From Lysinibacillus fusiformis (GTDB lineage Bacteria; Bacillota; Bacilli; Bacillales_A; Planococcaceae), in assembly GCF_002845985.1 (NCBI RefSeq), contig NZ_PDFK01000002.1, forward strand, positions 1-64,000: a stretch of DNA of 64,000 bases, in the 5' to 3' direction. The position numbers and the translations under genes are program-made. The notes under the pieces were generated by a model. The model was not told where the DNA came from. It saw only the letters and a program-made list of their open reading frames with translations, and searched no databases. Shown here piece after piece: positions 3,108-27,989 of this stretch; position 1 is the first letter of the stretch; each line of letters opens with the position of its first letter.

Positions 3108-4163
3108 TTAAATGAAACTATAGTTAATAATAGGATTTACATTCTCTATCCTTTCTTCACTTCTTTCAAGAATATACATTGGAATTAATTCATTTCCGAG
3201 TTCACCTGACCAAGTACATAAAGAAAGATCAATTTTTTCACCAGTACCCTCCAAACGAATGATTGGCCATTTTTTTTCAAGACATGCAGGCCATGTAAGT
3301 AATTCGTCACCAGGAATTACAGATAACTCCTTTATCTCATTTTTTATTTTGTAGGTTCCTCTAACTATGCATTCATCAAGTAGAATTGAATTATTCATTG
3401 CTTGAATATAATAATGCCAAGGCTTAATCCCCCAAGTAATAATTAATATTCCCTCTTCAAAACATTTATCAACTAAATTGGTTGTAGTAAATAACTCAAC
3501 AAGATTTAATGGCTCATCGCCAACTTCAGTTCTTATTAATTCACTAAAAAGTTTTAAATCCACCATAAAAAACCCCAGACTTCCCAAACTTCCATAAACT
3601 GAAGAATCAAAAACTTTATTGTTCTTTTTAATATCAGTTGTGTTTTTGAATATTAGCACATAGACAGTGACTGTTTCAATTTTTTGTTCATAATCCGTTA
3701 GAAACGGTGGAGATTCCGAGGATAAAAATTCAGGCTTATGAACTCCATGTCTAAAAACTTGAATTTTAATATTGTATTCCCCATATAATTCTATACAATC
3801 CTTTCGATAAGAAATTTTTTTAAGTAATACATTATCTCTAAGAGCTTGTTGAATAGTCTCATTTTTATTTTTTTTTATTAATTCCAAATTATTTTCATGT
3901 GTATAACAAATAAAATCTTGTTCAAAGAAAGATACATCTTTATATATTTTTTCTGTTATTTTTTTACCTAATATAGCAGAATCCAACAATAGCTGATCTT
4001 CATTTTTCACTTCTTCAACAATTAGTTTAAATCTACAAATATCGTATTCGCTTATAGTTTCATTAATAGGGATTTCTAGTGCTAAATTTTTAGTTTTCAA
4101 ATGTGCATCTTTTATATGGCTAGTACAATAACCTTCTTCAAACCATAAAGCTGTATTTTTCAT
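3108..4163 (-). CDS. Putative immunity protein of the VgrG-RHS toxin
   Basis: A 351-aa soluble protein of a family I do not recognise. The ATG at 4163 (MKNTALWFEEGY) is preceded by AGGGGTG and lies only five bases after the RHS stop codon. The upstream start at 4229 would overlap the toxin gene and is rejected. Tight coupling to the toxin 3' end is the hallmark of a cognate immunity gene and is the basis of the call. It is long for an immunity protein and has no membrane segment, so it would act in the cytoplasm, consistent with a nuclease-type toxin. A second enzymatic role cannot be excluded. Confidence 0.55.
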   Translation of the reverse strand: MKNTALWFEEGYCTSHIKDAHLKTKNLALEIPINETISEYDICRFKLIVEEVKNEDQLLLDSAILGKKITEKIYKDVSFFEQDFICYTHENNLELIKKNKNETIQQALRDNVLLKKISYRKDCIELYGEYNIKIQVFRHGVHKPEFLSSESPPFLTDYEQKIETVTVYVLIFKNTTDIKKNNKVFDSSVYGSLGSLGFFMVDLKLFSELIRTEVGDEPLNLVELFTTTNLVDKCFEEGILIITWGIKPWHYYIQAMNNSILLDECIVRGTYKIKNEIKELSVIPGDELLTWPACLEKKWPIIRLEGTGEKIDLSLCTWSGELGNELIPMYILERSEERIENVNPIINYSFI

Positions 4164-4168
4164 TAATT

Positions 4169-7100
4169 TCACCCCTGACAATTTATTGGATATCCTTTTT
4201 GAGACGCCCATTCCTTTGTTTCTTCCCAAGCTAGTGCAGGTGTGACATCCGCCTTTAATAACTTCCCTTTTGTGCCATCTGAATTAATAACATGCAAATC
4301 TCCTTTAAATTTCTGAATTTCTGAATTATTATAGTGATTTTGCAGACTATCTATCCATTCTTGATTTGTTAAACCTGACTTTTTAAATTGATTTTCTGTA
4401 AGTACAGGTTTTGTTCCTGCACCAAGCTCATTATAGCCATGCATCGCAGAATGATTAAGTCCTTCACCTTCTAACCATTGCTCTGATGAGAAATATAAAG
4501 CAGGCACACCTGTTTGAGAATTAAATGGTTGGATGCCTAATTTAGTGGCAAGTGTATGTGGAACCATGTGATGTCCTTGATTTACAGGGTTCGATAAAGG
4601 CATTAACCCAAAAACATCTATCTGTCTATTCGTGTCACTAACATACCCATACAATGTTGGATTATTTCCTGCCAGTCCAATCGGATCAGATTGGGTATAT
4701 ATCCCCTCACTTGCCGAGTAATAACGGAATCGATTATAGTAGAGTCCTGTTTCTTCATCTTCATACTGTCCTTGATAACGGAATGGAATAAAATCTTTTT
4801 CCCCAATGAACTTCTTAACTCGTCCATAAATATCAAGCTCACAAGTCCAAATTTTCTTTCCTTGTGTATCATATGCTTCAACAGGGGTACCAAGGTAATC
4901 TCTGATAATACTAAAAACACCTTCTCTTGTGATTTTAGCTATTGGATTAAATGATTTATTATCGTATACCCATGTTATCAAGGATTCATGTATATTTGAT
5001 AAGTCTTCTGAACAATTGTTCCACTCATGCAGAGTCGTATTCCCATCCCATACAAAATGAGTAACCTTATCTTCAGAACGCTTCTCTATCCGCCTACCTA
5101 GCGAATCATACTTGAACGTAACTTCTACCTTATCTGGCTTCATGACCTTCGCCATCATTCCATTGCCATAGTACTCATACTTCCACGTATCCCCATTCTT
5201 TTCGACTTTCTCTACGAGATTTCCTTCTTCGTCATAGGAGAATTTGGCATCTTTTGTTTCTAATAATCTACTGCCTGCGCCATAGATACGATCTTTTTTG
5301 TCTTTTGTTTCATACAAATTCCCGACATCGTCCACGCTACGGTATAAGAAATCAAATTGACCGCCTTGATTAGACCATACGAGGTTACTAAATTCGTCGT
5401 AACCATACGTCACTTTTATACCCGTTAGCTCATTGACCATGCTGCGTAATTGGTGATTCACATCCCAATTATACACGCGTCTTCGCGTATCGCGGTTTTG
5501 ACTACTTACGCGATGGTGTGTCGGTCTACCAGTTATATCATATTGCCATTTACTAATAACATCCCCTGGTAGGATTCTTTCAATCTCTTGACCAAGTTCA
5601 TTGTACTGCATCGAGGCTGTCCACTGGGCTTGCTCGGAGCGAGAGGCAGTCATTTGTAAGATATTGCCCAGCTCATTACGCGTGACATCGATTTTGGCAC
5701 CGAGGCTACTTGTTATTTGGGAGCGATTGCCTAATTCGTCATAGCTACTGGCAATCCAATGGTCATTTTGCCACTCTTTGATGACTTGCCCAGATGGGTC
5801 TCGCTCTAGCTTGACGGTTACATGCTCGTTTTCCGTTTCTAGTAGCGAACCGTTTTTGTCATAGGCAAACGTTTCCCAGGTGCCATCGTAGTAATCTGAT
5901 CGAATGACATTCCCTAGATTGTCGTGCTGATACGCTGTCCAGCGATTTCCTGGACGTTGAATGCGCTGAACCAATCCTGCCAGACTACGCTCATACATTT
6001 TTTCCATGTCATCAAAGCCAATTTCCTTGATGATATGGCCTTTTGTATCACGTTCAAACGTATACGCTTCGCCTTTTTCATTGATCACAGCGGTTAATTG
6101 CTCCTCTGTATCATAGGTGAATTGGACTTTCTTGCCACCTTGTTTTCGAGACGTTAGGCTACCTAGAATCGTGTAATCGAAGGCAACTTGCGTATGGTTA
6201 TCCTTCGCAAAAATAATATCGTCATAGGCATTATACTTTAATTGAACGTCGTTACCATCGGAAAGGTTGGCTCGTACAAGGCGATTTAAGTGGTCATAAC
6301 GGAACTTCTCTGTGGCCCCTAGAGGATTGGTCGTGCTAATGCAGTTACCTCGACGATCATATGTCCAGGTTGAACTTGTCCCGTCTGGCAATGTCACTTG
6401 GCTCAAGTTCAGATCAGCATCATAAGCTAAGCTTACCATATGACCTTGCGCATTTGTCACTGTTTCAATCAAACGATGCTCATTATAGGAAAATTCCGTC
6501 TTTGTACCATCCTCTAAAATAGTTGTCTGTAATGTACTGTCCTCATTATAGATCCATTGACGACTTCCACCCTCTGCATTCACTGCCTGAATCAATCGAT
6601 CCTTGTCATCATGCTGCGAGGATAATGTACTGCCATCTGCAAAAGTCACCTTTATCGGGTTTGCCCATTCATCATAGCTGAATGTTGTTGTGCGGCCATC
6701 TTCATCCACTTCTTGCAGTAATTCAAAGTCCTCATTATAGTCATAGCTGATCTCACTGCCATCTGGATGAACAATTTTTGTACAGAGATTATCTTCATTA
6801 AAATAATAATAACTTTTATGGCCTAAGCTATTTGTAATTTCGTTATAGCCCTCGTGGTATGTAAGCTCACCTGCAAGAACATTGCCATCTCCCCATGTTT
6901 TGACTACTCGTGCCCCTGTCGTTGGACCATCATAGCGCCAGAAGAAGCTATTTTTATTGCGATCTATTTTTTGCACCATAAGATGATTCACATATTGTAT
7001 ATGCGTACTTTGCCCTAATGCATCTTGGACTTCGATTAAATCTTGGCCATCGTTGTAAACATAGCGAACTAAAACTTCACGACTCATCTGGTTACGTAGG

Positions 7101-9691
7101 GCGACTTCTGTCATTCTGCCCGCTTCATTGGTCATAACGTCTAATACTCGCCCTACACTATCCGTTACTTGAGATAAGAAGCCTTTCAGGTTATATGCAA
7201 ATTGAATATGATGCTCTTGCTCATTTCTTACTTCTTTTAATCGGTATGTTGTCTCTGTTGTTTGTTCAAATACATAAGTCAGCCGTGTGTCATGCTCAAA
7301 TAAATGATATTCCTCACCTGTATTTTTCAGGGTCATTTTATCTTTTTTATTAAAATATGACAAATTTATTGGTAAAATTGGAAATCCTACTGCGCGACCA
7401 TCTGTCACAACAATCCCAATCAGGTCTTCTTCCTCAAATATCTCTAAGGCTAAATCATATATAAAGTGCATACCATGACCTGACAAGCCAACACGACTAC
7501 TATCACTGTACCAAGCACGTTCCCATGATAGTGGGATAGGTCCAGGTAGTTCAAAATCGACACCTTCATAAATCATACGCCCTGTGATTAAATCAACAGG
7601 TTCAAAGCCCTTTTTACAGAATTTATCACTTAATCCTTTTGTACAATTAAACTTCTTTAATACCCCATGATTAAATTTCGTCAGCTCTGTTTTGGCCATA
7701 GCCTTCATACCGTCTACTGCCTTCGAAACAGCAAGTACTTCATCCATCGAGGCGATAACTTTATCCGCGGCTGTCTTCACACCTTTAGAGCCTTTGTTGG
7801 CTAATGCCGAAACTGTATCTAGCGTTTGTGATACTTTTGTATAGGCCGCTTTCATCCCTTTTACTGCTTTTGAGGCATCCACTGCCTTATCCGCAGCCTT
7901 GGCGGTTTTACTTGCTGCCTCTGCCACTTTTGCGGCTTTATTGACCTTGTAAGCAGTTTTCGCTGCATCGCCCACTATTGGAACTGCGCCCACTAAGTTC
8001 ATGGCTGCTCCCATATAGTCTCCTCTTGCCAAGCTAATACCTGCATTCGCAATATCTGCAATGGTCCCGATACCCGGAATAAATCCAGCGACATCTAACG
8101 CTAAACTAACATTATCAAGCAGCTTACTAAAGAAGCCTTTTTTCTCTTTCTTCTGCTCTGCTTTTTGTGGGAAAATGACGTCCACTTTTGTTGTAGCTTC
8201 GATTGCTTCTTCATTTAGCTTCGGTGGTTGGCTTTGCTTCTCCGTACCCTCTTGATCAATAAGTGTACTAATTAACTGCGTGTCAGCTGCAAGGATTACA
8301 TGACTTTGCTCCTTCGCTGAAATAGCAATCCATTCCTCCGCCTCTACAGATAGCTCTTTCATTCCACTTATTTCAAGTGTTTCATCTGCCGCTAGCATGA
8401 TGGTACTGTTACTTTGAAATGTTACACCTTCTCCATCATCCATCTTAAGGTCCAAAACGCCATCTACTGCACTAAAGGTAATATCTCCAACACCTAATGT
8501 CATATCTTTTCCCGCGTTGGTCGCTAATGATTTCACGGTCGTGTCTGCCATTTTCTTCGTTTGTTTTTGTCCACCCTCAGGTGTGGCTGGATTAACGCGT
8601 ACCGAGCTAATCACAATGGCATCTTCTTCCACAGCACTTGGAAAATGTAATTGGGCACGTGCACCTTTTTGCGGCATTAAATACATCACACCGTTAGCAT
8701 CTGCTGAATAAGCAAACCAGTGCGCTTTTTCTTTATCCTGTTTTTTATCGATATCTAAATGAATTTTAACGGTGTTTTGCGTGACATCAATAATCTTTCC
8801 TGTAAAAGCTGCCCCAATCAAATCTAAATTGCGTACCAATCGTTGGCGAATACTTTTCTCTGGTTGTGCAGTATATTGAAACTTTAATACACCATCATCA
8901 AGATGGACTTCTCGAACCGTTATAATATAGGGCCTTCCCTTTAATTGCACCGAAGTGCCTAGCTCAAAGGCCTCTGTGCTTTCAAACTCACAAAATGTAT
9001 AATCAGCTTCGCTTACATCCGAACCATCATTTTCTGTAATCAACCGATACGTATCGACATCCATACGTAATATGGAAGGAAGATGATCAATCGTTATGCT
9101 TTTCCTGCTTTGAGGTGTACCAAACCAGAATCGTGGACCCTTCCCTTTTAGATCAGGAAAAACAACCGCATGTAGATTGGAGGCCATTCTTTTAATAAAT
9201 GCCCAATCCGTTTCCAAATATTGAATCGCAATATGACCAATGGTTTGACTATTAGAGGCATGGTCAATGTAATCTCCATGAGGATAGACTCCCACAATGT
9301 TATCCATTAACTCCACATATGTCATATTTGCATCTTGAAAAGAACGTGAGCGCTTCTCAATATCCAGATTTGCTGTAAATGACACTGCCTCTACTGTGAC
9401 CGTGTGCACACCTTGAGATGCCTGTAACTCTGCATTTTCAATTCTTCCTGAGAACAATATGCTCTTATCTCGTCCAAATTTCACAACAATCTCATCTGTA
9501 TGACTAACTCGCTGAATATACTTTTGCGCTTGCTCTTCAGCAATCATTCCGGTAAAGGACAACCTCGCATGATCATTACCTTTATGTTTTATTGTTAGTT
9601 TGTCTAAATGAATAAGTGGATACGGCCATTCGACTACAAGATCCTCATACGTACTAATCATGTGGACTTCTTTTTCTCCTAGCGCTTTCAT
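4169..9691 (-). CDS. VgrG-like spike fused to RHS toxin
   Basis: This 1840-aa protein appears to be both spike and effector. Residues 1-350 are a phage late-control-D/VgrG domain (ETDWAFIKRMASNLHAV), followed by an OB-like and beta-prism-type tail to about 480. Residues 520-610 are glycine/alanine-rich and hydrophobic (FIPGIGTIADIANAG). A DUF6531-type entry (DLITGRMIYEG) lies near 697, then dozens of YD repeats to the core end DPIGLAGNNPTLYGYV near 1667. The last 145 residues are the toxin, with GHHMVPH near 1706 resembling HNH/GHH nucleases; the activity is inferred. AGGAGGT precedes ATG 9691. It closes the injection operon and is followed by its immunity gene. Confidence 0.88.
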   Translation of the reverse strand: MKALGEKEVHMISTYEDLVVEWPYPLIHLDKLTIKHKGNDHARLSFTGMIAEEQAQKYIQRVSHTDEIVVKFGRDKSILFSGRIENAELQASQGVHTVTVEAVSFTANLDIEKRSRSFQDANMTYVELMDNIVGVYPHGDYIDHASNSQTIGHIAIQYLETDWAFIKRMASNLHAVVFPDLKGKGPRFWFGTPQSRKSITIDHLPSILRMDVDTYRLITENDGSDVSEADYTFCEFESTEAFELGTSVQLKGRPYIITVREVHLDDGVLKFQYTAQPEKSIRQRLVRNLDLIGAAFTGKIIDVTQNTVKIHLDIDKKQDKEKAHWFAYSADANGVMYLMPQKGARAQLHFPSAVEEDAIVISSVRVNPATPEGGQKQTKKMADTTVKSLATNAGKDMTLGVGDITFSAVDGVLDLKMDDGEGVTFQSNSTIMLAADETLEISGMKELSVEAEEWIAISAKEQSHVILAADTQLISTLIDQEGTEKQSQPPKLNEEAIEATTKVDVIFPQKAEQKKEKKGFFSKLLDNVSLALDVAGFIPGIGTIADIANAGISLARGDYMGAAMNLVGAVPIVGDAAKTAYKVNKAAKVAEAASKTAKAADKAVDASKAVKGMKAAYTKVSQTLDTVSALANKGSKGVKTAADKVIASMDEVLAVSKAVDGMKAMAKTELTKFNHGVLKKFNCTKGLSDKFCKKGFEPVDLITGRMIYEGVDFELPGPIPLSWERAWYSDSSRVGLSGHGMHFIYDLALEIFEEEDLIGIVVTDGRAVGFPILPINLSYFNKKDKMTLKNTGEEYHLFEHDTRLTYVFEQTTETTYRLKEVRNEQEHHIQFAYNLKGFLSQVTDSVGRVLDVMTNEAGRMTEVALRNQMSREVLVRYVYNDGQDLIEVQDALGQSTHIQYVNHLMVQKIDRNKNSFFWRYDGPTTGARVVKTWGDGNVLAGELTYHEGYNEITNSLGHKSYYYFNEDNLCTKIVHPDGSEISYDYNEDFELLQEVDEDGRTTTFSYDEWANPIKVTFADGSTLSSQHDDKDRLIQAVNAEGGSRQWIYNEDSTLQTTILEDGTKTEFSYNEHRLIETVTNAQGHMVSLAYDADLNLSQVTLPDGTSSTWTYDRRGNCISTTNPLGATEKFRYDHLNRLVRANLSDGNDVQLKYNAYDDIIFAKDNHTQVAFDYTILGSLTSRKQGGKKVQFTYDTEEQLTAVINEKGEAYTFERDTKGHIIKEIGFDDMEKMYERSLAGLVQRIQRPGNRWTAYQHDNLGNVIRSDYYDGTWETFAYDKNGSLLETENEHVTVKLERDPSGQVIKEWQNDHWIASSYDELGNRSQITSSLGAKIDVTRNELGNILQMTASRSEQAQWTASMQYNELGQEIERILPGDVISKWQYDITGRPTHHRVSSQNRDTRRRVYNWDVNHQLRSMVNELTGIKVTYGYDEFSNLVWSNQGGQFDFLYRSVDDVGNLYETKDKKDRIYGAGSRLLETKDAKFSYDEEGNLVEKVEKNGDTWKYEYYGNGMMAKVMKPDKVEVTFKYDSLGRRIEKRSEDKVTHFVWDGNTTLHEWNNCSEDLSNIHESLITWVYDNKSFNPIAKITREGVFSIIRDYLGTPVEAYDTQGKKIWTCELDIYGRVKKFIGEKDFIPFRYQGQYEDEETGLYYNRFRYYSASEGIYTQSDPIGLAGNNPTLYGYVSDTNRQIDVFGLMPLSNPVNQGHHMVPHTLATKLGIQPFNSQTGVPALYFSSEQWLEGEGLNHSAMHGYNELGAGTKPVLTENQFKKSGLTNQEWIDSLQNHYNNSEIQKFKGDLHVINSDGTKGKLLKADVTPALAWEETKEWASQKGYPINCQG

Positions 9692-9720: not shown

Positions 9721-10119
9721 TTAAAAACCTTGTTTCGGTATTTCTAAGTCCTCTTGCCCATCATGAACAATATCGATTTTGCCTCCGCCTGCAGAGCATT
9801 GCGTATGACAACGATTAAGTAACGCTTGCTTCCCCTCGATATTGACATTTTCCATCCCTTCCATCCAGTCGATGGAGCATACAGGTGTACATGGTTTTTT
9901 CAACTTTAAGCAAACACCAAAGGTTGGGATGTTATCAGGGTTTCGATCCCCAACATTCATTACAGCTTTCTCTTTAATATAAACACCATGATCTTGCGGC
10001 AAATTTAAATAATTGAGGTGGCTACCATGCTCACAGGCAATGATTGCGCCATGTACTACATAACTAAATTGCTCTTGTTCCGAACCTTCTGTCTCCAAAT
10101 TTTCTACAACTTGAGCCAT
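9721..10119 (-). CDS. DUF4280 PAAR-like spike-tip protein
   Basis: A 132-aa protein with the DUF4280 pattern: an early IIACEHGSHLNYL segment and a later cysteine-rich part (VCLKLKKPCTPVC, then NRCHTQCSAGGGKI). Proteins of this family cap VgrG-type spikes like PAAR proteins, probably with a metal bound by cysteines and histidines. I chose ATG 10119 (MAQVVENL) because GGAAGGAT lies just upstream; ATG 10143 would place that site inside the gene. It lies 29 bases before the VgrG-RHS gene, supporting a role in arming that spike. The structural role comes from family knowledge. Confidence 0.85.
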   Translation of the reverse strand: MAQVVENLETEGSEQEQFSYVVHGAIIACEHGSHLNYLNLPQDHGVYIKEKAVMNVGDRNPDNIPTFGVCLKLKKPCTPVCSIDWMEGMENVNIEGKQALLNRCHTQCSAGGGKIDIVHDGQEDLEIPKQGF

Positions 10120-10195
10120 TAAATATCCTTCCCTTCCTATCATTTGTAATAAATTTCCGCTTTAACAGTACATAGCAACAAATGATTTATTAAAA

Positions 10196-10693
10196 TTACT
10201 TACTTTCCAATCTTACTCGCTGCAACTGAATCCCAAGAAAGGGGCGTCGCAATATACTTTCTGCTACATCTAAATTGATGACGGTGAAAGCTTCCTTTTG
10301 GCCTGCGACTTCAAAAATACAATCCAGTTCCACTTTCTTGGGGTCTATCACTAGCTCTTTTATTCCTCCGTCAGGATAATAAGCGGTTTCATGAGAAATA
10401 CAGTCCTTTTTCACTATATCCATAAGCCAATACACGCGCTGTGTCCCTTTCTTGACATCCGTAAAGACAATAGCTGTAAAACCTAAGTTATCCTCGTATT
10501 TCATTAACAGCGCTTTTAAATCATCAGACACGATTCTTCGAGGCTTGTCTAAATAATCTAGATATACCGCATTCTCTTTTTCTACCACTTCCCCGAATAC
10601 AGAAGAACAGACAAAGTTTTCATCGAGGTCCGTTTTCAAAGGGATGATTGGATTGAGAATGCTTAGATCTTGCCGAAGAATAAAATATTCCAT
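10196..10693 (-). CDS. Small accessory protein, possible Imm11-like fold
   Basis: A 165-aa soluble protein starting at ATG 10693 behind AGGAGGAAAAG. The second half (ELDCIFEVAGQKEAF, then VAESILRRPFLGIQLQRV) recalls Imm11/DUF1629 proteins, but the match is weak and from memory. It sits between the pentapeptide-repeat gene and the PAAR-like tip gene, so it may be an adaptor or chaperone for spike loading rather than an immunity protein. It is upstream, not downstream, of the toxin, which argues against plain immunity. Function unknown. Confidence 0.5.
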   Translation of the reverse strand: MEYFILRQDLSILNPIIPLKTDLDENFVCSSVFGEVVEKENAVYLDYLDKPRRIVSDDLKALLMKYEDNLGFTAIVFTDVKKGTQRVYWLMDIVKKDCISHETAYYPDGGIKELVIDPKKVELDCIFEVAGQKEAFTVINLDVAESILRRPFLGIQLQRVRLESK

Positions 10694-10717
10694 CTTTTCC
10701 TCCTGTATCTATCAGTG

Positions 10718-11815: not shown

Positions 11816-11830
11816 ACATTCACATCCTCA

Positions 11831-19518: not shown

Positions 19519-21129
19519 CTAACTGGCATCAGTTACTTCATCTACTGGAGGTTCTGCTTCATTAGGAAGTGCATTATCTGCTGGTTGAACCTGTGGAACA
19601 GGGTTTAATTTATCATTTGCATTCATAATCTTTCTCTCTAGTCCAAGAACTTTTGCCAGTAATTCTGTTTCTTGATAAATCTCCTGCGCAAGCGTATAGG
19701 ACTCTATCGCTTGAACGTATTCCTGACGGGCATAGCTCTGATCCCCACTTTTTTCTAACCCTTCTGCCTTTAATTCTTTTTGAACCTTCTTCAATTCATT
19801 TATTTTTTCTTGTGTATCTTCAATTTTTGTTTTAATTTGTGTCTCTCCAGTAAATGAAATGGCGAGTGCTTTTTTTCTAGCTTTCTCATAAATGGCTAAA
19901 GCCCCATTGTAGTCCTCTGCCTCAAAACGAAAATCTGCATCTTTTATAGCATCAACAATCTCCACAACGGAATCCATGTTGGCAATTCTTTGCTCTACTT
20001 CTTCCTTACCAAATCCATTAATGAGTTTGCCCTCTTTTTTAGCTTTTTCATAATGTTCTAATGCCTCTGTAAATTTTCCAGTTTCCGCTGATTTATCACC
20101 ATTGATAATTAGTTGTGTCACTCTTAATTTTCTAGCTAGTAAATTTCTATGTATAGGATCTTTTAATTTTTTTGCTGCATTTCTTCCCTCACTATATGCA
20201 AGTAACGCTTCATCATAATTTCCGTCTTGAAAGTAAACATTTCCACTCTTTTCATGGTCCTTCATCTCGACTGTTAACTCTGCTAATTTTTTTGCTTGTT
20301 TTACTTGATAAAAAATCGTGCCGCCACCTACAACCAAGGCTAAAACTAATGCAGCAGCAATCATTTTTATATACTTCATCTTGTTTTTGTTTGTTTCTTG
20401 ATACACTTTGTTCACAAATATGGCAGCAACCGTATAATTTTCTACAACTTTTCTTTGCCTACTCAACAATATTTCTTCCAACAAATCTGTATATTGTTCA
20501 GAATCTTTGACACCTTCCAAAGCGTCAGCCATCTCAATCTCACTGACATCTCCCCAAAAGCCAGCTGTACAAAGTAATAGGACATCACCATCAGTAAGCT
20601 TCATTTTTTTAGACACAAAGGGTTGAAATTTGTTTGGTTTACCTAGATAATTCAACAAATTCCCTCTTTCTTCATGCTGGCTAATATCTAATGAACGGTT
20701 CTGACTGTTTACTATTTCCTGTGCTAAACTTTGGTCTGTACTTTTGTAGGTTAATGTACCGTTTCGGAAGTGATACAGTCGCGAATTCCCCGCTACTCCA
20801 ACAATCATTTTTGAGTAGTCGGAAACAACTATGACAATACTAGCCTTTAATCTTACTCGTAAGCTTTGCGCTTGTAGTATATTTTGTGCATGTCTAAGGT
20901 ATTTATTGATAGCTCTCCTTGACATAGCTGGCTTTTCCATAAACTTCTCCAAAATAGCCTTTACGGCAAGCTCTGCACTACTAATTTCCTGATCTGCATC
21001 CAAGCCCTTGACAGCTACCCAACAAGCTACATCGTCGAGTTCTGTATAGGCAAAATAGTCTTTATTTTGCAGAAAGGACCCTGCTTCAGATAAAAAGCCC
21101 GTTTTAAAGTCGCAATTTTCCTTTCTCAT
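19519..21129 (-). CDS. Degenerate PP2C domain + TM segment + TPR-like repeats
   Basis: This 536-aa protein joins a PP2C-shaped domain (residues 1-245), one membrane segment (about 256-275, MIAAALVLALVVGGGTIFYQ) and a helical repeat region with an FxxGxYxxAL pattern (FQDGNYDEALLAY, FEAEDYNGALAIYEKA). The PP2C metal-binding aspartates are missing: ADG is replaced by VAVKGLDAD, SDG by CTAGFWGD, and the final DN-T by VENYT. I therefore read it as a pseudophosphatase that could sense or dock phosphoproteins and recruit partners through the TPRs. GGAGGAG precedes ATG 21129. It follows an intact PP2C gene. Confidence 0.75.
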   Translation of the reverse strand: MRKENCDFKTGFLSEAGSFLQNKDYFAYTELDDVACWVAVKGLDADQEISSAELAVKAILEKFMEKPAMSRRAINKYLRHAQNILQAQSLRVRLKASIVIVVSDYSKMIVGVAGNSRLYHFRNGTLTYKSTDQSLAQEIVNSQNRSLDISQHEERGNLLNYLGKPNKFQPFVSKKMKLTDGDVLLLCTAGFWGDVSEIEMADALEGVKDSEQYTDLLEEILLSRQRKVVENYTVAAIFVNKVYQETNKNKMKYIKMIAAALVLALVVGGGTIFYQVKQAKKLAELTVEMKDHEKSGNVYFQDGNYDEALLAYSEGRNAAKKLKDPIHRNLLARKLRVTQLIINGDKSAETGKFTEALEHYEKAKKEGKLINGFGKEEVEQRIANMDSVVEIVDAIKDADFRFEAEDYNGALAIYEKARKKALAISFTGETQIKTKIEDTQEKINELKKVQKELKAEGLEKSGDQSYARQEYVQAIESYTLAQEIYQETELLAKVLGLERKIMNANDKLNPVPQVQPADNALPNEAEPPVDEVTDAS

Positions 21130-21161: not shown

Positions 21162-22001
21162 TCACCAAGTTTTTTCTAAAATCACGATGGTAGCATTATC
21201 TTGATTTTTTAAGCGTTTTTGTTCAACGGCTTTTATCATGCTTTGTGCTAAATCATAGGGTGGAGCTTGTTGAGAGAGAATTTTTTCCATTTCAACCTCC
21301 GTTAAAGCATCATAGATTCCATCACTAAAAAGACATACCTTGTCCCCTCTATTTAGCTGAATCGGATTATTTCCTGTATCCAAATTTTTAAAGCCTGCAT
21401 ATCCTAAATAATTGATTAATCTCTTTTTTAGAGGATTTTCCTGAACCTCAAGTTGCGAAATTTCACCTGAAATATATCTTTCGGTTAAAACTGACTCAAA
21501 AATATGTTTTTGGTTAATCTTTAGAAATTCACCATTTCTAAAGATCGTGAGAACACTATCCCCTACTGCCCCCCAATGAAGATAGCCTTCACTATCAATA
21601 ACGGCTGTGACTAATGTTGTTCCTCCATTGGAGCCATTTAAGTTTTCCACAATCATATGATTGCTTGCTATAGCAGCTTCCTTAAAAAAGTTTTGTAGAT
21701 TATTTAAGCTACTAAGCTTTTTAAATTCTTCTATGAAGGTTGTCACTGCAATCGTGCTAGCCATCCGCCCATTGGCTAAGCCGCTAATTCCATCTGCAAG
21801 CACCGCGATTGTGCCATATGTCGTTTCGGCAGTTGAGAAATAATCATCCTGCTCATCACGTCTTCCGATTGTTTGACCATTTCCAATATAAATTTTCCCT
21901 TTATCCATTTTTTGAGCAAGTATACTTCTTATTAGCAGTAACAAGATAAGGACAATGATAAAGATTAAGGTAATTATGTACGGCAATAACTTTTGGTCCA
22001 T
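21162..22001 (-). CDS. Membrane-anchored PP2C-type protein phosphatase
   Basis: A 279-aa PPM-family phosphatase. An N-terminal membrane segment (residues 8-28) anchors it, with the catalytic domain from about 35. Metal-binding motifs are intact: GRRDEQDD near 46, ADGISG near 70, GTTLV, GDS, SDGIYD near 225 and QDNATIVIL near 270. It should remove phosphate from Ser/Thr in the cytoplasm. With the kinase at 27081-27989 and two FHA proteins in the cluster it forms the parts of a reversible phosphorylation switch, like PpkA-PppA-Fha of some T6SSs. It starts just after the FHA gene stop, behind GAGGA. Confidence 0.88.
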   Translation of the reverse strand: MDQKLLPYIITLIFIIVLILLLLIRSILAQKMDKGKIYIGNGQTIGRRDEQDDYFSTAETTYGTIAVLADGISGLANGRMASTIAVTTFIEEFKKLSSLNNLQNFFKEAAIASNHMIVENLNGSNGGTTLVTAVIDSEGYLHWGAVGDSVLTIFRNGEFLKINQKHIFESVLTERYISGEISQLEVQENPLKKRLINYLGYAGFKNLDTGNNPIQLNRGDKVCLFSDGIYDALTEVEMEKILSQQAPPYDLAQSMIKAVEQKRLKNQDNATIVILEKTW

Positions 22002-22007
22002 ATGTCA

Positions 22008-22535
22008 TCATTCCTCACTTTGATTGTTTTCCCATTCAAAGTGAACACCACAAAGTGGAATAAATAAAAATATACTTCTCCCTAGCTGTATCACATCATA
22101 GGCTGCTAATTCCGTTGGTGTATAAACGGCCTCATTATTTAGATAGGCTAATCCTGATGCATCTCCTGGCAGTAAGTAAAAATTACGTTTTTTAGGATCA
22201 TACACAATGACTGCATGATTTCGCTTAGAGATGGAATTGTCCCCTGCAATGCGGATATGCATATCTTCTGCTCTACCTATAAAATTCTTTTCAGATAAGA
22301 TACGATAATCTCTACCCATTTGCGGCCCTTCAATACAAACTAACCATCCTGTTACAGGATCTATCCCATCCATTTCTCCTAAGTAAGGCAATGTTTTATC
22401 ATCTGCTTCAATGACAGGTGAGGAAGGACTATTTTGTCTTTGCTCCTGTTCCACCATCACGTTACAGTAAGGACAAATATTGCGATGTCTCCTTGAACTA
22501 AACATATGACCATTTGTACATCTAATCAAACTCAT
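22008..22535 (-). CDS. Zinc-ribbon FHA-domain protein
   Basis: A 175-aa protein with C6, H10, C21 and C24 arranged as a small zinc ribbon, a disordered linker, and an FHA domain at about 65-165 (IGRAEDMHIRI, SISKRNHAVI, AYLNNEAV). GR, S-x-x-N-H and N are the usual phosphothreonine-binding positions. The domain should bind a phosphothreonine peptide, for example on the cluster kinase or its substrate. ATG 22535 (MSLIRCTNGH) lies seven bases after GGGGGAT; ATG 22550 is rejected. It plays the part that Fha proteins play in T6SS activation. Confidence 0.85.
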   Translation of the reverse strand: MSLIRCTNGHMFSSRRHRNICPYCNVMVEQEQRQNSPSSPVIEADDKTLPYLGEMDGIDPVTGWLVCIEGPQMGRDYRILSEKNFIGRAEDMHIRIAGDNSISKRNHAVIVYDPKKRNFYLLPGDASGLAYLNNEAVYTPTELAAYDVIQLGRSIFLFIPLCGVHFEWENNQSEE

Positions 22536-22571
22536 TTCGATATCCCCCATCTTTGTTACGAATTTTTTTCT

Positions 22572-23147
22572 CTATTTAACCAAAATTCGCGTATTCGCTA
22601 TGTATATTGTGTCTCCATTACCTAATGGGTAAGGAATCTCATGTTTTAATCTATTTTTTACGCGCTTATTAGCTTTTTTTAAGCCAACACCATTAACCGA
22701 ATCTATATCCTCTAAATACCAAATTCCAGCTACACAATTTAGTACAGCATGCTCATAATTCACAAGAGATTCATACTCTGTTCCACTTAAATCAATATCC
22801 GCCTTGTGTTCAGCTGAACTTTTTCCAATAAGCAATGAAATTTGATCGCCAAGTTCCCATTCATCTATTTCTACTCCACGTTCATTAAGAAGAACAAGCT
22901 TTGAAATGTCCTTCTTAGCCATCACTTGAGTGATTGCCTTTGCTTCGTATTTAAGCGATACATATATAATGGCGAGTATGACTATTACCGTCCCAATAAC
23001 GAATTTCAAAAGGACATCCTGATTCATCACAAAAACATATAAAATGAAAAAGAAGGCGATTGTGACAATAATGATATCGATAATTTTTATAAACATTTTT
23101 TTTCGTGTATTTCCACTGTAAGCATCAGCTGAAAATGGCTCATACAT
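22572..23147 (-). CDS. Membrane FHA-domain protein
   Basis: A 191-aa protein with two membrane segments near residues 20-40 and 44-62, then a cytoplasmic FHA-like domain (LLIGKSSAEHKADI, NYEHAVLNC, DSVNGVGLKK). The FHA arginine is replaced by lysine in IGKS, and the SxxH motif is altered, so phosphothreonine binding may be weak. ATG 23147 (MYEPFSADAY) is favoured because GAGAGGAG lies nine bases before it; ATG 23174 has no site. It could fix the regulatory complex, or the base of the apparatus, to the membrane in place of a TssJLM-type complex. Confidence 0.75.
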   Translation of the reverse strand: MYEPFSADAYSGNTRKKMFIKIIDIIIVTIAFFFILYVFVMNQDVLLKFVIGTVIVILAIIYVSLKYEAKAITQVMAKKDISKLVLLNERGVEIDEWELGDQISLLIGKSSAEHKADIDLSGTEYESLVNYEHAVLNCVAGIWYLEDIDSVNGVGLKKANKRVKNRLKHEIPYPLGNGDTIYIANTRILVK

Positions 23148-23177
23148 ATAATCACACTCCTCTCTTTTTGCCATAGC

Positions 23178-23612
23178 TTATTTATTAAAAAAACGTTCAA
23201 ATAAATCCGTTGTATCCAATGGATTTTTCTTCGTTTTTTTATGAAGCGTTGAGGACATCTCCTTTGTTTTAGGATTGAAGCCAAAGAAATGTTCAAAGTT
23301 TTTTTCAATATTATTCATATTAAAATCTGGCTTTTTCTCTGTAGACTGATGTCCGTTTGAATGCTTTTCATTTTGTTGTTCATTTTGCCAGCTGGTACCT
23401 TTGCCATCGAGACGGGCATCGTAAGTCTCTTTCAGCGCTGGATCTTTAAGCACCTTATATGCCTCTTGAACCTCTAAAAAAATTTTCTCTGACTCTTGAT
23501 TTCCACCACTCACATCAGGGTGATGCTTTTTGGAAAGCTTTCGATAAGCTAATTTTATTTGCTCTTGTGTTGCATTTCGGTCTATACCCAATGTTTCATA
23601 ATGCGTTTTCAT
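23178..23612 (-). CDS. J-domain (DnaJ-like) co-chaperone
   Basis: A 144-aa protein whose first 68 residues are a complete J domain with HPD at 31-33 (KLSKKHHPDVSGG) and the KDP-LKETYD end. A charged low-complexity linker and a short basic C-terminus follow. It lacks the zinc-finger and C-terminal domains of housekeeping DnaJ. The J domain stimulates Hsp70 ATP hydrolysis, so the natural partner is the Hsp70-like protein of this operon. It lies directly after the tube gene, suggesting tube or sheath proteins as clients. GGGGTTG precedes ATG 23612. Confidence 0.9.
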   Translation of the reverse strand: MKTHYETLGIDRNATQEQIKLAYRKLSKKHHPDVSGGNQESEKIFLEVQEAYKVLKDPALKETYDARLDGKGTSWQNEQQNEKHSNGHQSTEKKPDFNMNNIEKNFEHFFGFNPKTKEMSSTLHKKTKKNPLDTTDLFERFFNK

Positions 23613-23701
23613 GTTTTCAACCCCAATTTAGGATTATTAAAAATAATCTAAGGAACTATAAAAGTTCCTTAGATATAGTAGTGTTTTATCGTGCTGCAAT
23701 C

Positions 23702-24127
23702 TTAGACAGCGTAGCCGCCTTCGATTTTTGCCAATTCTGTTTTGTCTTTCTTTTGCTTAATAAATAAGAAGAACTCACCAATACCTTCAGTGTCACCATA
23801 TCTTTCTGTATAGTCCACAACGAAAGCATTTGGGAAATGAATTTTTCTTACTACTTGATCAGCTGAGATCACTTCAAGTGTCACTTTGCGGTAGCAATCA
23901 GCTTTTTCAGCTGGTACTAATGACCATAATCCTAATTTCATCGTATCATCAGAATTATCACCATCAGTGGCAGTTAAAATTTTACCTTTTACTTTTAAAG
24001 TTGCCCCAACATCTGTAGAGCGCGCGTTAGAATCATTCGGTGTATCTGTCTCGTATTCGACAGTCATGATGCTTTCTAACCCTAATTCAATTGCTTCTGA
24101 TCCTTCTACTTTTAATACAAAACCCAT
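23702..24127 (-). CDS. Hcp-like candidate tube protein
   Basis: A 141-aa, largely beta-stranded protein without cysteine clusters or membrane segments except one Cys (KADCYRKVTLEVI). Features in order recall Hcp and phage tube proteins: an N-terminal strand pair, a long loop around 30-65 (DTPNDSNARSTDVG), then a run like the Hcp core (VRKIHFPNAFVVDYTERYG). A very strong AGGAGGT precedes ATG 24127, as expected for a protein needed in many copies. It follows the candidate sheath gene, as in tail loci. Sequence identity to known Hcp is low, so the call is fold-level inference plus context. Confidence 0.6.
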   Translation of the reverse strand: MGFVLKVEGSEAIELGLESIMTVEYETDTPNDSNARSTDVGATLKVKGKILTATDGDNSDDTMKLGLWSLVPAEKADCYRKVTLEVISADQVVRKIHFPNAFVVDYTERYGDTEGIGEFFLFIKQKKDKTELAKIEGGYAV

Positions 24128-24358: not shown

Positions 24359-26527
24359 TTAGGCTTTAACAGCACTTGTCCCTTTAGTAATCGTGACCTC
24401 AAGATTTTTAACATTACCGTTAAATACAAGATCGATCTGACATAAGCTTGTTTTCTCATCAATGATATAGCCAATATCATCTCCGTCATGAATGATAGAG
24501 TTTACATGACCTTTATCATTCAGCCACTTACTTTTTTGACTACTTGGATTATTACTAAAGAAGCGAACGATATTCTCGTGCTTAAAGTCACCAGATTGGA
24601 ATCGAAGTATTCTTTCAATATACGTACTAACTTGCGTTTTATAGATTGAATCGAATCCATCTTCTTCCATTGCTAGACTTCTTGCTTTATAAACAGTAAT
24701 ACGTCTAATATCTTTATCCTGTAGTTGGGCATTTTCGGAAGAGAATACAAAACCGAAGCTTCTGCTGTTAATAGCGTCTTTAATATTATTCGTAAAACCT
24801 GAAATTTCCTTCGCCATCGTAGTTACAGCTCTAAGTGAGTTGTCTCCGGCTTCAATATCAAATCGAACTCCAGGGTAATTACGTTTTACATTTTTAAATG
24901 ATTCCTTTAAATACTCTGGGCATTGGTAGGCGGAAACGATACCTGCTGCTACATAGCTAGCACCTACATAAACGCCTTCTATCCAAAGCTTTAAAATATC
25001 TTCCTTTTCTTTCGATAGACGAGCTCCATTTTCGGTAGTATGCATTCTCGTATCAATAACTACGCCTGATTTATCTTTTGGAATAATCGTAAAGTTTGGT
25101 AGGCATGGTATCGCGAACTCACTAAATTCTTTTCTGACAAGAACTGAGCATTTATCGATCAGGCGATCAATCCCAGCAGTTGCGATGCCGTTGAAGGTAG
25201 TTTCTTCTTCAGCCATAAAGTTAAAGAAAATTTGAACCTTGTAATCTTTTACCGTATCTAAGAGGATTGATAAAGATTCCATTGTGTTACCCTCTTGCTT
25301 TGTAACCTTTTCATTCCCTTTGAATCTTGATCGGCTAACTTTCATTTTTCCAGAAGATTCTAATTCTAGAGCAGGTACAATGCCATACCATACAGTATCT
25401 GTAAAATCATTTTTAGCGTTAACCGTATTTAAATACGTGCGTAATCTTGGTAGATTATTACTTTTCACAAGCATATCGAGCTTCGTGTTTGTCACTAATA
25501 ATGACGGCTGCATACCTTTATTTTTCGTAGCATATTGATCGAAGTACATTTTGACACCTAATAGCTTTTCGACTAAAGGCTTGACCGTTTTTACAAATTC
25601 ATCCTTTGCATCCTTATAGAACTCCAGGTATGTATTGTAATTTTGAACTTCTGTTTCAACATCAAATTCGGCTTTTACAGCTGGTAGAGGTGAGAACGTT
25701 CTCACAACTAAATCTTTTACATAGGAAGACGGCGATTCTGTAATAGCCTCATAGTCTTCTTCGAAAACTGTACTCAAGCCGTAATTACTATTTTCTTCAA
25801 TGACCATCAGTTCTGAACTATTCGTTTGAGGTGCCTCAATAATTTTCAATTCACCATTATCACCAATAGTAAGCGTACCTATTTGTAATTTTTCGGACTC
25901 ATCCTCATCTTGACTAGCACCTAATAATAATCTTGTTTTAATATCTTCAATTGCTAAAGGCAGCATCGCCATTACATTGTTGTAGTTTCTACTAGCTACT
26001 TCAAACATAAGATTTAGCTTGTCACCAGTATCTAATTTTTTCGGATCTCCCTCATCCAGCTTGTCATACTCACTGTATAGGTAATGAATTTCCTTACGAA
26101 CTTGGCGAATATCATCCATGACTTTTTTAGGAGAAATCATGTCTAGTAAATTTTCAAATTTAAAATCTACATTCGTGATGCCCTGACTTCTTTTTGTATC
26201 AATGAGCGTAAATAGCATCTTTAAAAAATCGTTATTTTGGTCGATTGCTATTTCAGATATACAATCATCTTGAATTCCTTCAGGCTTTTTCAAGGTATAC
26301 ATAACCTTTTGATTTGCCGCGTTATAAAATGAATACACAGTAGGTGAAAACTTATCTAAAAATTCGTCGAAGCTTTTTACAAGAAGATGTTGACTAATTT
26401 CTTTGATCTTTTCATCACTTAGACTGTCGATTCCTTTTACATCGCCAACAAGCGTAATTAAATCCAATTTCTCTGGGTTTATTTCTTCAAAGAGCATTGT
26501 TCTGTTCGTTTGACTAATAATCTCCAT
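24359..26527 (-). CDS. Candidate contractile sheath protein (TssC-like)
   Basis: A 722-aa soluble protein of mixed alpha/beta character. It is the first large gene of the operon and is directly followed by the Hcp-like tube gene, the order sheath-tube seen in phage tails and T6SS. Segments such as WIEGVYVGASYVAAGIVSAY and the acidic linker near 195-260 would suit a large sheath subunit, possibly with TssB- and TssC-like parts fused. I see no diagnostic sheath motif, so the assignment is from context and size. A strong Shine-Dalgarno lies upstream but is separated from ATG 26527 by a hairpin. No AAA+ unfoldase gene accompanies it. Confidence 0.5.
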   Translation of the reverse strand: MEIISQTNRTMLFEEINPEKLDLITLVGDVKGIDSLSDEKIKEISQHLLVKSFDEFLDKFSPTVYSFYNAANQKVMYTLKKPEGIQDDCISEIAIDQNNDFLKMLFTLIDTKRSQGITNVDFKFENLLDMISPKKVMDDIRQVRKEIHYLYSEYDKLDEGDPKKLDTGDKLNLMFEVASRNYNNVMAMLPLAIEDIKTRLLLGASQDEDESEKLQIGTLTIGDNGELKIIEAPQTNSSELMVIEENSNYGLSTVFEEDYEAITESPSSYVKDLVVRTFSPLPAVKAEFDVETEVQNYNTYLEFYKDAKDEFVKTVKPLVEKLLGVKMYFDQYATKNKGMQPSLLVTNTKLDMLVKSNNLPRLRTYLNTVNAKNDFTDTVWYGIVPALELESSGKMKVSRSRFKGNEKVTKQEGNTMESLSILLDTVKDYKVQIFFNFMAEEETTFNGIATAGIDRLIDKCSVLVRKEFSEFAIPCLPNFTIIPKDKSGVVIDTRMHTTENGARLSKEKEDILKLWIEGVYVGASYVAAGIVSAYQCPEYLKESFKNVKRNYPGVRFDIEAGDNSLRAVTTMAKEISGFTNNIKDAINSRSFGFVFSSENAQLQDKDIRRITVYKARSLAMEEDGFDSIYKTQVSTYIERILRFQSGDFKHENIVRFFSNNPSSQKSKWLNDKGHVNSIIHDGDDIGYIIDEKTSLCQIDLVFNGNVKNLEVTITKGTSAVKA

Positions 26528-26533
26528 TCATTT

Positions 26534-26563
26534 GGCTGTATATTACTACAGCCATCCCTCCTT
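26534..26563 (-). promoter_or_regulatory. Hairpin between Shine-Dalgarno and start codon of the sheath gene
   Basis: On the minus strand AAAGGAGGG is followed by a perfect 7-bp hairpin (GGCTGTA, loop GTAATA, TACAGCC; 26553-26534) and then by the ATG at 26527. Unfolded, the site is too far from the start. With the hairpin formed, the site and ATG come to about normal spacing. An ATG inside the left arm is too close to the site to be a likely start. Confidence 0.6.
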
Positions 26564-26950
26564 TAGATAACGAATTTCGAGTAAGCATAAACATTAGTGC
26601 GTAAAAAATACAGAATTAGAATTGTATAACTACTTGAATCGAGCATCTTAAAAGAACATTTAGACACTTAAATTAAGTCGATATATACATTTAAGATAAA
26701 ATTTTACAATAAAAACAATAATGTACTGAACTATGTACGAGAAGCTCTAATTCAACTTTATGCATTTTTTATACAAAACTCACTAATGGTTTTATGTATC
26801 ACAAAAGTAACTATACAATACCTAAAATCAATGTCAATATTTTCTATAGAATATATTGTAAGCAAAAACATTTTAAGGACAGTTTATTAAAAATATTACA
26901 TGGTAATAATTATGATATTTTTTAGGGAAATAGTGGATAAATCCTATTTT
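26564..26950. other. AT-rich intergenic region upstream of the sheath operon
   Basis: About 390 very AT-rich bases with no ORF of note, between the kinase terminator and the sheath operon. It must contain the operon promoter on the minus strand, but so many TATA-like stretches are present that I cannot choose one. No operator palindrome stands out. Confidence 0.5.
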
Positions 26951-27003
26951 TTTATAAAAAAAACAACTAAAGGTCCGATTGCTATTAGGCCCTAAGTTGT
27001 TCT
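26951..27003 (-). terminator. Rho-independent terminator of the kinase gene
   Basis: AACAACT and GG-CC arms (26962-27001) form a stem around a central ATAGCAATC loop, followed on the minus strand by a run of eight T. It separates transcription of the kinase from that of the sheath operon. Confidence 0.75.
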
Positions 27004-27080
27004 TTTGAATATCATACTTTTAAGACTAAAATGAGTAAAAAGTATTAAAAATATAGTAATTTTGGTCTTTTAGAATTAAT

Positions 27081-27989
27081 TTATTTAAAATAGTTCTTTA
27101 TACATTTGAATTTTCTTTCCAAAATAATCATGTATTTAATAAAAGAAAGGGAAGAACATCTTTTTTTATGCTGCACTTGCAAGCCCCATAAAATAGTCAA
27201 TGCCATAGGAATGCTCACTTTTCTATTATATTTTCTCACATTTGCAAGTTTATCCTCGATTACTCTTTGTGAAACATCTAGTGGGACTTCGTTTGTTAAT
27301 GCGAAGTATAAAGTTGCCATCAAACTATAAATATCTGTATAAATGCCTTGCTCTCCTTTAACGGAATACTGCTCAATAGGTGAGTATCCCGGTGTAGTAA
27401 ATATTGGATATTTTTCCACCGTTTTATAATAAATTGCTGAACCGAAATCTAATAAGCAAGGTTTCCCTTGCGTATCAATTATAATATTATTCGGCTTTAT
27501 ATCCCGATGAATAATGCCTTTACTATGTAAATACGAGATGGCATCAATTAAGGGAAGGAATACTTCTTCATATAGATGATGCCTTTCATGAATAGCATAT
27601 TTATGTATATATTGGTCCAGTAATATCCCTTCATAATAATCTGTAATCATATATATAGAACCGTTTTCAGTAAAATGATGTCTATACTTAACAATATTTT
27701 GATGGTTCAATTGTTGGATCATCAATGCTTCACTTAGAAATCTTTCCTTTAATTCCTGAAATTTTTCCTTTGTTGAGGGTACACGATTGATTACTGATTT
27801 GTTATCCAAATCTCGTAACGCTATTTCCATTGGGAAAAATTCCTTAATGATTAGTTGCTCTCCAGTATTTATATGTTCAGACATATACACAAAGGATAAT
27901 TTACTAGTGGCAAGAACTTGCGTTATTTTATATGTATTATGTAATAGACTGTTTATTGGTAAGCTCAATTCAAATATTGCTGCCTGCAT
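27081..27989 (-). CDS. Ser/Thr protein kinase of the injection cluster
   Basis: A 302-aa Hanks-type kinase domain without membrane segment or sensor domain. The catalytic loop HRDIKPNNIII is near residue 158, LLDFGSA near 181 and the APE-like TPGYSPIEQ near 200; the ATP-lysine is in LIIKEFFP near 47. It should phosphorylate Ser/Thr in the cytoplasm. Being next to two FHA proteins and a PP2C phosphatase suggests it triggers assembly or firing by phosphorylating a cluster protein, as PpkA does in Pseudomonas H1-T6SS. It has its own terminator, so it can be set independently of the structural operon. AAGGGAG precedes ATG 27989. Confidence 0.9.
   Translation of the reverse strand: MQAAIFELSLPINSLLHNTYKITQVLATSKLSFVYMSEHINTGEQLIIKEFFPMEIALRDLDNKSVINRVPSTKEKFQELKERFLSEALMIQQLNHQNIVKYRHHFTENGSIYMITDYYEGILLDQYIHKYAIHERHHLYEEVFLPLIDAISYLHSKGIIHRDIKPNNIIIDTQGKPCLLDFGSAIYYKTVEKYPIFTTPGYSPIEQYSVKGEQGIYTDIYSLMATLYFALTNEVPLDVSQRVIEDKLANVRKYNRKVSIPMALTILWGLQVQHKKRCSSLSFIKYMIILERKFKCIKNYFK

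Follow-up and report, generated by a model that had tools for sequence, protein, structure and literature searches.

A conserved gene cluster of Lysinibacillus fusiformis that probably encodes a cell-bound contractile injection system

The T6SS is gated by the PpkA/PppA/Fha pathway, and that of Francisella (subtype ii) has an IglA/IglB sheath and membrane parts of the DotU/IcmF type. Lays et al. 2016 (PMC5349215) noted that DUF4280 tips, which the Francisella system with IglG carries, occur in Gram-positives, although the T6SS had at that time been described only from Gram-negatives. Extracellular contractile injection systems (eCIS: Afp, PVC, MAC) likewise use VgrG and PAAR-type tips according to excerpts of PMC8651086, and excerpts of PMC12923769 place eCIS in Bacillota. 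The haloarchaeal T6SS-like contractile injection system sits on a single cytoplasmic membrane and has eCIS-type parts (Cis2, Cis11 and others); in the excerpts of its description, no complex was observed outside the cytoplasmic membrane (PMC11566945).

We analysed a window of 64,000 nt of Lysinibacillus fusiformis (GCF_002845985.1, contig NZ_PDFK01000002.1, positions 1 to 64,000 of the forward strand), which holds a block of minus-strand genes at 3108-27989. An earlier note on this DNA had listed two VgrG spikes, a DUF4280 tip, an Hcp-like protein and kinase, FHA, PP2C and J genes. A check of the ORFs found them in place, and their Pfam-type matches agree with this inventory. The features are:

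27081..27989, minus strand: Ser/Thr kinase (E 7.5e-32), no TM helix in the window copy
26810..26837, minus strand: best promoter-like match of the strand, upstream of the sheath gene (consensus match)
24359..26527, minus strand: 722-aa sheath candidate, residues ~18-165 TssB-like (profile and alignment)
23702..24127, minus strand: 141-aa tube protein, TssD/Hcp-like (Pfam)
23646..23674, minus strand: terminator-like hairpin with a 12-pair stem, just 3' of the tube gene (hairpin search)
23178..23612, minus strand: J-domain protein (Pfam-type match, HPD motif)
22572..23174, minus strand: FHA protein with two transmembrane helices (domain match, TM prediction)
22008..22550, minus strand: soluble FHA protein (domain match)
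21162..22001, minus strand: PP2C phosphatase, membrane-anchored by one N-terminal TM helix (domain match)
19519..21129, minus strand: degenerate PP2C domain with TM helix and TPR, pseudo-PP2C/TPR (Pfam, motif check)
18211..19482, minus strand: orf423 (423 aa), core protein, baseplate candidate (position, co-occurrence)
17525..18220, minus strand: orf231 (231 aa), core protein, baseplate candidate (position, co-occurrence)
14856..17504, minus strand: Hsp70-like ATPase (Pfam, motifs)
14044..14817, minus strand: orf257 (257 aa), core protein, baseplate or adaptor candidate (position, co-occurrence)
13342..13980, minus strand: orf212, adaptor candidate by position, no Pfam match
11831..13345, minus strand: VgrG spike (Phage_base_V E 6e-7; vgr_GE E 8e-10, below that model's cut-off)
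10718..11815, minus strand: pentapeptide-repeat protein of the effector module (Pfam)
10196..10693, minus strand: orf165, effector-module accessory, distantly Imm11-like (sequence comparison)
9721..10143, minus strand: DUF4280 PAAR-like tip (Pfam E 3e-22)
4169..9691, minus strand: VgrG-Rhs fusion, with an N-terminal Phage_GPD match (E 5e-5, below cut-off), then RHS repeats (E 4e-52) and DUF6531, and a polymorphic C-terminal toxin from residue ~1700
3108..4229, minus strand: orf373, presumed immunity gene (position)
1720..3012, minus strand: orphan Rhs C-terminal cassette (Rhs comparison)

The block 3108-27989 is one conserved unit. The 722-aa sheath candidate has 275 relatives; in all 80 loci retrieved, gene order and strand are kept and the tube gene follows the sheath gene. 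Among 398 Bacillota genomes, the 722-aa protein is present in 13, spread over 9 families, and orf231 in the same 13, one of them (G339) with the sheath gene and orf231 ~190 kb apart; orf231 has one further marginal match. Both orf423 and orf257 are found in 13/13 sheath-bearing genomes and in 0/28 selected negatives, and DUF4280 occurs in 12/13 sheath-bearing genomes versus 7/385 others. One genome (G380) has the core and lacks DUF4280, which counts against the proposed system. Within the genus, 21 of 31 genomes carry the sheath gene, and VgrG(-Rhs) is present in exactly these 21. Because order and strand are kept in every retrieved relative and the parts co-occur across genomes, the cluster is not a product of chance. 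The earlier note had let its reading stand or fall with such conservation, which is clearly present.

The locus has the VgrG spike and PAAR-like tip by which a T6SS is recognised, and also an Hcp tube by way of TssD (PF17642), the window copy falling below Pfam's cut-off (E 0.017). Compared with a profile of five T6SS VgrGs, the spike reaches an hhalign probability of 98. It is the only clear match between the 13 cluster families and 48 T6SS and phage references (14 profiles and 34 single proteins), in which the pairing of the sheath candidate with TssB comes top but is weak. The tube candidate is linked by sequence to the TssD family only, which we take to be the Bacteroidota type of Hcp-family tube. 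TssD matches occur in 10 of 13 members of the tube family (best E 3.2e-5), and a profile built from 14 T6SS Hcp proteins fails to single out the candidate (probability 1.5), its best window ORF being the J protein. The single-sequence AlphaFold model of the tube protein is of low confidence (mean pLDDT 43.0), and Foldseek found no match to it at E <= 0.001. DUF4280 itself is not confined to this system: the idea that all Bacillota copies belong to it was rejected, 7 of 19 DUF4280-positive genomes being without the 722-aa sheath.

For the large protein that the earlier note had put in the sheath position, the first ~165 residues align best with TssB among the 48 references. The local score is 24.4, against a shuffle maximum of 23.1 (reached by 0 of 300 shuffles), and the global score 18.0, against 12.6 (0 of 200); the hhalign probability is low (2-9%), the local margin over the best shuffle is small, and this pairing was selected from several subregions and references. 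On the TssB side, its two local matches cover partly the same residues, and they become co-linear only in the global alignment. Profile comparison, whose control also misses TssC-gp18, detected nothing of TssC beyond the N-terminal stretch. PF05943 has no match in the same genome nor in three relatives, and the 722-aa family does not match the PF04984-type sheath. The AlphaFold model, from a 40-row alignment (76-96% identity to the window copy), has a mean pLDDT of 36.4 and gave no Foldseek match at E <= 0.001. Since both AlphaFold models are of low confidence and the rest of the 722 aa matches nothing, the sheath fold is not demonstrated. The protein, with its TssB-like N-terminus, is a candidate sheath, perhaps of a fused, one-gene type. 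The terminator-like hairpin is found after the tube gene in 22/78 loci and after the sheath gene in 0/80; it would favour sheath and tube over the downstream genes, which fits two high-copy subunits. The operon shows no enrichment of promoter-like sites, with 49 against the 60 expected from shuffles.

T6SS subtypes i-iii share with the cluster VgrG, an Hcp-family tube, a PAAR-like tip, an Rhs toxin, kinase/phosphatase/FHA control and the TssB-like stretch. Unlike them, it has as its sheath candidate a single 722-aa protein in which TssC is not detectable, has an Hsp70-like ATPase with a J protein, and belongs to a Gram-positive host; nothing in the window is recognisable as TssE, F, G, K, J, L, M or ClpV. 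Small profiles of ClpV, TssE, TssJ, TssL and TssM gave no signal among the 120 window ORFs (best E 0.2 to 1.5), in line with the earlier view that this is not a standard T6SS. The Francisella system has the DUF4280 tip in common with the cluster, whereas its sheath and membrane parts are not seen here. With the haloarchaeal system, as its excerpts describe it, the cluster would share a machine on a single cytoplasmic membrane; unlike the eCIS-type parts of that system, the present families match no eCIS sheath.

No baseplate family was matched by orf423, orf231 or orf257, either among the 48 references or in a further comparison, including orf212, with 19 references and 24 shuffles each. Profile comparison found no TssF, TssG, TssK or gp25, and TssE, F, G and K have no family matches and none in the window ORFs. 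The sensitivity control recovered TssE-gp25 (83%) and missed TssC-gp18 and TssF-gp6; because such known distant pairs are also missed, the core proteins may still be remote homologues of baseplate proteins. Four weak pairings were not taken as homology: orf212-TssC (probability 10.7), orf165-TssE (9.4), FHA-TagH (20.4) and tube-P2 gpI (11.3). Sequence searches of the core proteins in Pfam, PHROGs, NCBIfam, PADLOC and PDB returned only matches judged spurious, such as those to a designed repeat protein (E 5.5e-7, no single stretch passing alone) and to parvovirus NS1 (E 0.0045).

Among the signalling and chaperone genes, the HPD motif of the J-domain protein is kept in 85/85 family members, and the DGxxG pattern is missing from 85 of 86 pseudo-PP2C proteins. 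TM helices are predicted, in the window copies, only in the PP2C, the pseudo-PP2C/TPR and one FHA protein. As for the Hsp70 gene of the earlier note, its ATP motifs are conserved and its Pfam match is marginal (E 0.014); a distant relative matches SrfB.

We consider it probable that the cluster encodes a cell-bound contractile injection system of Bacillota that follows a T6SS-like logic with parts of its own, most likely a phosphorylation-gated injector. The 722-aa sheath, with its TssB part, would polymerise around the TssD-type tube on a baseplate of VgrG, orf423, orf231 and orf257, to which position assigns these roles. The membrane FHA, PP2C and TPR proteins would seat the assembly on the cytoplasmic membrane, and the kinase, PP2C and FHA proteins would gate assembly or firing, as their counterparts PpkA, PppA and Fha do in the T6SS. 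On contraction, the tube would be driven into an adjacent cell together with VgrG, the DUF4280 tip and a cargo of Rhs or other toxins; the gene next to the toxin would protect kin. In the weakest step, the Hsp70-like ATPase and the J protein might aid assembly or recycle the sheath instead of ClpV. The scheme contains no step for crossing the thick Gram-positive wall, which counts against it. Of the whole injection machine with different parts proposed in the earlier note, the conserved unit, the injection-type spike, tube and tip and the different part set are borne out; the folds of the candidate sheath and of the 423-, 231- and 257-aa baseplate candidates are not demonstrated.

Alternatively, Hcp, VgrG and DUF4280 might deliver toxins by a route that involves no contraction; the 722-aa protein would then serve as a scaffold or as a partner of the Hsp70/actin-like ATPase. 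The low-confidence model and the undetectable TssC part agree with this, but the TssB-like N-terminus, the invariable succession of sheath and tube genes and the placing of the hairpin argue against it, and we hold it to be unlikely. Slightly less credit still goes to a far-drifted eCIS freed by lysis. Such systems share VgrG and a PAAR-type tip with the cluster, and five of the seven DUF4280-positive genomes without the 722-aa protein carry PF04984 sheaths. However, the 20 cluster ORFs have no match at E <= 0.1 to the Pfam families of the phage sheath (PF04984), the Phage_T4_gp19 tube, Baseplate_J, the DUF4255 cap, fibres or lysis, and the fixed operon includes membrane-anchored signalling proteins; 8 of the 13 sheath-bearing genomes are without a phage/eCIS-type PF04984 sheath.

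That the cluster is a prophage tail or tailocin, either domesticated or defective, is very improbable. The VgrG and tube families are tail-derived, and the same genome has a separate PF04984 tail sheath, its only match, on another contig (C2:333445). Against this origin, the 20 cluster ORFs contain no capsid, terminase or integrase family (Pfam), searches of viral contigs yielded no sheath relative and those of phages no sheath or VgrG match, and kinase, FHA, PP2C and Hsp70-like genes stand in fixed order. The earlier note had likewise set a prophage aside.

If the cell-bound injector works, it accounts for Gram-positive spike and toxin genes that have no known delivery machine. To the question posed by DUF4280 tips in Gram-positives, the unit offers a specific candidate answer that can be put to the test, naming the sheath, tube and core genes that travel with DUF4280 and VgrG. 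Confirmation would mean that common Bacilli also fight by contact-dependent injection, and would show how a machine of this sort can be built when neither a TssJLM complex nor ClpV is recognisable. More doubtful is a separate contractile class for single-membrane, thick-walled cells, in which one gene encodes a fused sheath, the baseplate set is unrelated, phospho-signalling proteins provide the anchor and Hsp70/J sheath recycling stands in for ClpV.

The earlier note had also named an RHS toxin with its immunity gene. The toxin is present (RHS repeats, DUF6531); immunity is assigned to orf373 by position, and this protein has no significant family match. The toxin is polymorphic, with a conserved core, an exchanged C-terminal tip and orphan tips: 14 congeners match it at 84-90% identity up to residue 1697-1749, beyond which the frame continues, and in a fifteenth (G411) the match stops at residue 1616. 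The position of orf212 suggests an effector adaptor, presumably resembling Eag/DUF1795.

Comparative sequence analysis indicates that the cluster at 3108-27989 is a real, conserved injection system of Bacillota. It is most likely contractile and cell-bound, with candidate sheath, baseplate and anchor parts. Its genes are arranged as follows in transcription order.

27081-27989, minus strand: kinase, first gene in transcription order
24359-26527, minus strand: 722-aa protein, candidate sheath
23702-24127, minus strand: 141-aa TssD/Hcp-like tube protein
next, minus strand: J protein, membrane FHA protein, FHA protein
next, minus strand: PP2C, pseudo-PP2C/TPR protein, orf423, orf231, Hsp70-like ATPase, orf257 (the three orfs are baseplate candidates)
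next, minus strand: orf212, VgrG, pentapeptide protein, orf165
9721-10143, minus strand: DUF4280, PAAR-like tip
4169-9691, minus strand: VgrG-Rhs, spike-toxin fusion
3' end, minus strand: orf373, orphan Rhs tip

The cluster is conserved as a unit across genomes, which supports its treatment as one machine in the earlier note. A pattern-based scan of genome contigs yielded 275 relatives of the 722-aa protein, of which we used the best 80, from Lysinibacillus, Solibacillus, Sporosarcina, Brevibacillus, Aneurinibacillus, Paenibacillus, Cohnella, and one Bacillales MAG. Among these best 80 of 275, the order and strand of the detected genes are the same in all 80 loci, in a test that tolerated extra gene copies adjoining the first copy, and the full ten-gene set from the sheath to the Hsp70-like ATPase is present in 76; several of the other four are stopped by contig ends. 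The kinase is found in 72/80 loci, often without direct adjacency (median distance 2.5 kb), and orf257 was detected in only 37/80, probably because many fetched stretches stop at this gene. Sheath identity is 95-99% in named Lysinibacillus and 95-100% in the 20 genus-mates having a sheath, which suggests a genome of Lysinibacillus type.

The co-occurrence check proposed in the earlier note gave a consistent answer, with sheath, orf231, orf423, and orf257 all in the same 13 genomes. These 13 sheath-bearing genomes, our own included, were found among 398 Bacillota genomes and span 12 genera and 9 families. The only additional orf231 genome (G101) has a marginal, partial match (E 7e-4), and orf423 and orf257 are present in 13/13 sheath-bearing genomes and 0/28 negatives, which were hand-chosen and include seven DUF4280-positive, sheath-negative genomes. 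The core of G339 is complete though spread over ~190 kb, so linkage does not account for the co-occurrence in that genome. Within the genus (31 genomes), the 21 with a VgrG(-Rhs) match are the same 21 that have the sheath (Fisher p 2e-8, relatedness ignored); for four of these (G401, G409, G418, and G424), the best match covers only the VgrG part. Short fragments of a second-copy sheath gene lie close to an extra VgrG pair in two congeners (G411:C15:6714-6975 and G399:C1:2859863-2860056).

Two distant relatives, G380 and G248 (25-29% identity), contain sheath, tube, VgrG, orf423, and orf231 contiguously, with an Imm11/orf165-like gene immediately before the sheath. Directly after this block, G248 has the Hsp70-like ATPase and orf257, and in this genome the Imm11/orf165-like gene is preceded by an AHH-nuclease protein, apparently in frame with a DUF4280 domain. 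Of the signalling families, the stretches examined around G248 contained just a kinase-like match ~17 kb downstream, so the signalling and control genes look like a layer added to a minimal core. The G380 locus contains two further Hsp70-family proteins (L024:5837-7390 and 10327-11919). A distant Hsp70-like protein (L025:8012-10828) matches SrfB (PF07520, E 4e-7), and may connect SrfB proteins to tail-like machines.

Homology to known tails is clearest for the spike, since VgrG matches a T6SS VgrG profile with probability 98. In the tube family, 10/13 members match Pfam TssD (best E 3.2e-5), and the tube protein matches PDB Hcp1 (E 0.0097); it was not picked up by a profile built from 14 other Hcp proteins of T6SS. 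The 722-aa protein has no convincing match in Pfam, PHROGs, or PDB. Among 48 references its top match is TssB. Residues 26-64 and residues 84-145 each align locally with TssB; these two matches overlap on the TssB side and become co-linear in a global alignment of sheath residues 18-165, which puts FENLLDMISPKKVMDDIRQVRK of the sheath on the TssB stretch around DFSP. The local score of 24.4 (15 TssB sequences) was matched by 0/300 shuffles (maximum 23.1), and the global score of 18.0 compares with a maximum of 12.6 in 200 shuffles. Comparison of TssC with the sheath candidate found nothing. Because hhalign gives probabilities of no more than 2-9% and the match emerged from trials of several subregions and references, we regard the N-terminal likeness to TssB as suggestive to good rather than proven. 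AlphaFold models of sheath candidate and tube are both low-confidence. A Megamonas plasmid gene adjoining a VWA gene (L118:20001-20612) has a 34% match to a tube protein of this system, with no annotated tail gene in its surroundings.

The cluster had been described as not a prophage, and this stands: two pattern scans of IMG/VR found no sheath relatives, and the phages searched for sheath and VgrG had relatives of neither. A plasmid collection gave no sheath match. A Paenibacillus polymyxa plasmid has an orphan VgrG-DUF4280 effector module (L119:11220-20159; pentapeptide, two small genes, VgrG, DUF4280, VgrG fusion, and nuclease-like genes). The phage/eCIS-type sheath family PF04984 is absent from 8/13 sheath-bearing genomes. 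Of seven Bacillota genomes (L199-L206) that are DUF4280-positive but lack the 722-aa sheath, five have PF04984 sheaths, in G222 at ~1 kb from DUF4280; this is possibly a second, eCIS-type system.

Among the control and energy genes, the Hsp70-like protein retains phosphate-2 motifs in 83/83 members and phosphate-1 in 75/83, the J protein HPD in 85/85, and PP2C DGxxG in 85/87; the PP2C/TPR protein lacks DGxxG in 85/86, yet is a PP2C homologue (E 3e-6). A hydropathy scan placed transmembrane helices in PP2C (87/87), PP2C/TPR (82/86), and one FHA family (86/86), and otherwise in no more than one or two members of a family. T6SS assembly is gated by PpkA, PppA, and Fha (PMC10433429). The Hsp70-like and J proteins might act in sheath recycling, the weakest step of this reading.

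VgrG-Rhs copies in 14 congeners are 84-90% identical as far as residue 1697-1749, beyond which the frames are open without match; in a fifteenth (G411), the match stops at residue 1616. Partial Rhs copies are numerous in the same genomes; the window itself has two, one at 2-625 and one within 1720-3012. Read as sequences, the shared core, divergent tips, and partial copies form the pattern of interbacterial polymorphic toxins. We read a putative GHH-type nuclease motif in the window's Rhs tip; a Pfam search of this tip gave no GHH match. The two window copies are orphan C-terminal cassettes of Rhs type next to the main VgrG-Rhs gene, and more occur on contigs C3 and C7 of the same genome.

In the top-ranked open-access papers, subscription papers and preprints being outside this scope, we found no description of the system. 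The existence of such a system in Gram-positives was speculated on in PMC5349215 and PMC8651086. Two further papers describe a membrane-bound CIS in haloarchaea (PMC11566945) and treat eCIS in Bacillota (PMC12923769). Passages from PMC3482391 and PMC12474359, and a text search of PMC5014421 that had no hits, contributed nothing decisive.

The top promoter-like match of the minus strand lies upstream of the sheath gene, among matches without enrichment relative to shuffles (49 observed, 60 in shuffles). A 12-pair terminator-like hairpin (23646-23674) lies 3' of the tube gene, in a region with 9 such sites versus 7 expected. In related loci, a hairpin with at least 8 pairs stands behind the tube gene in 22/78 cases and behind the sheath gene in 0/80, against 0/78 random stretches, a pattern that would fit a high-copy sheath-tube pair with read-through into the remaining genes. 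At coordinates above the cluster, Rfam matches at 32319-32411, 40722-40962, and 47688-47899 correspond to a glycine riboswitch and two T-box leaders.
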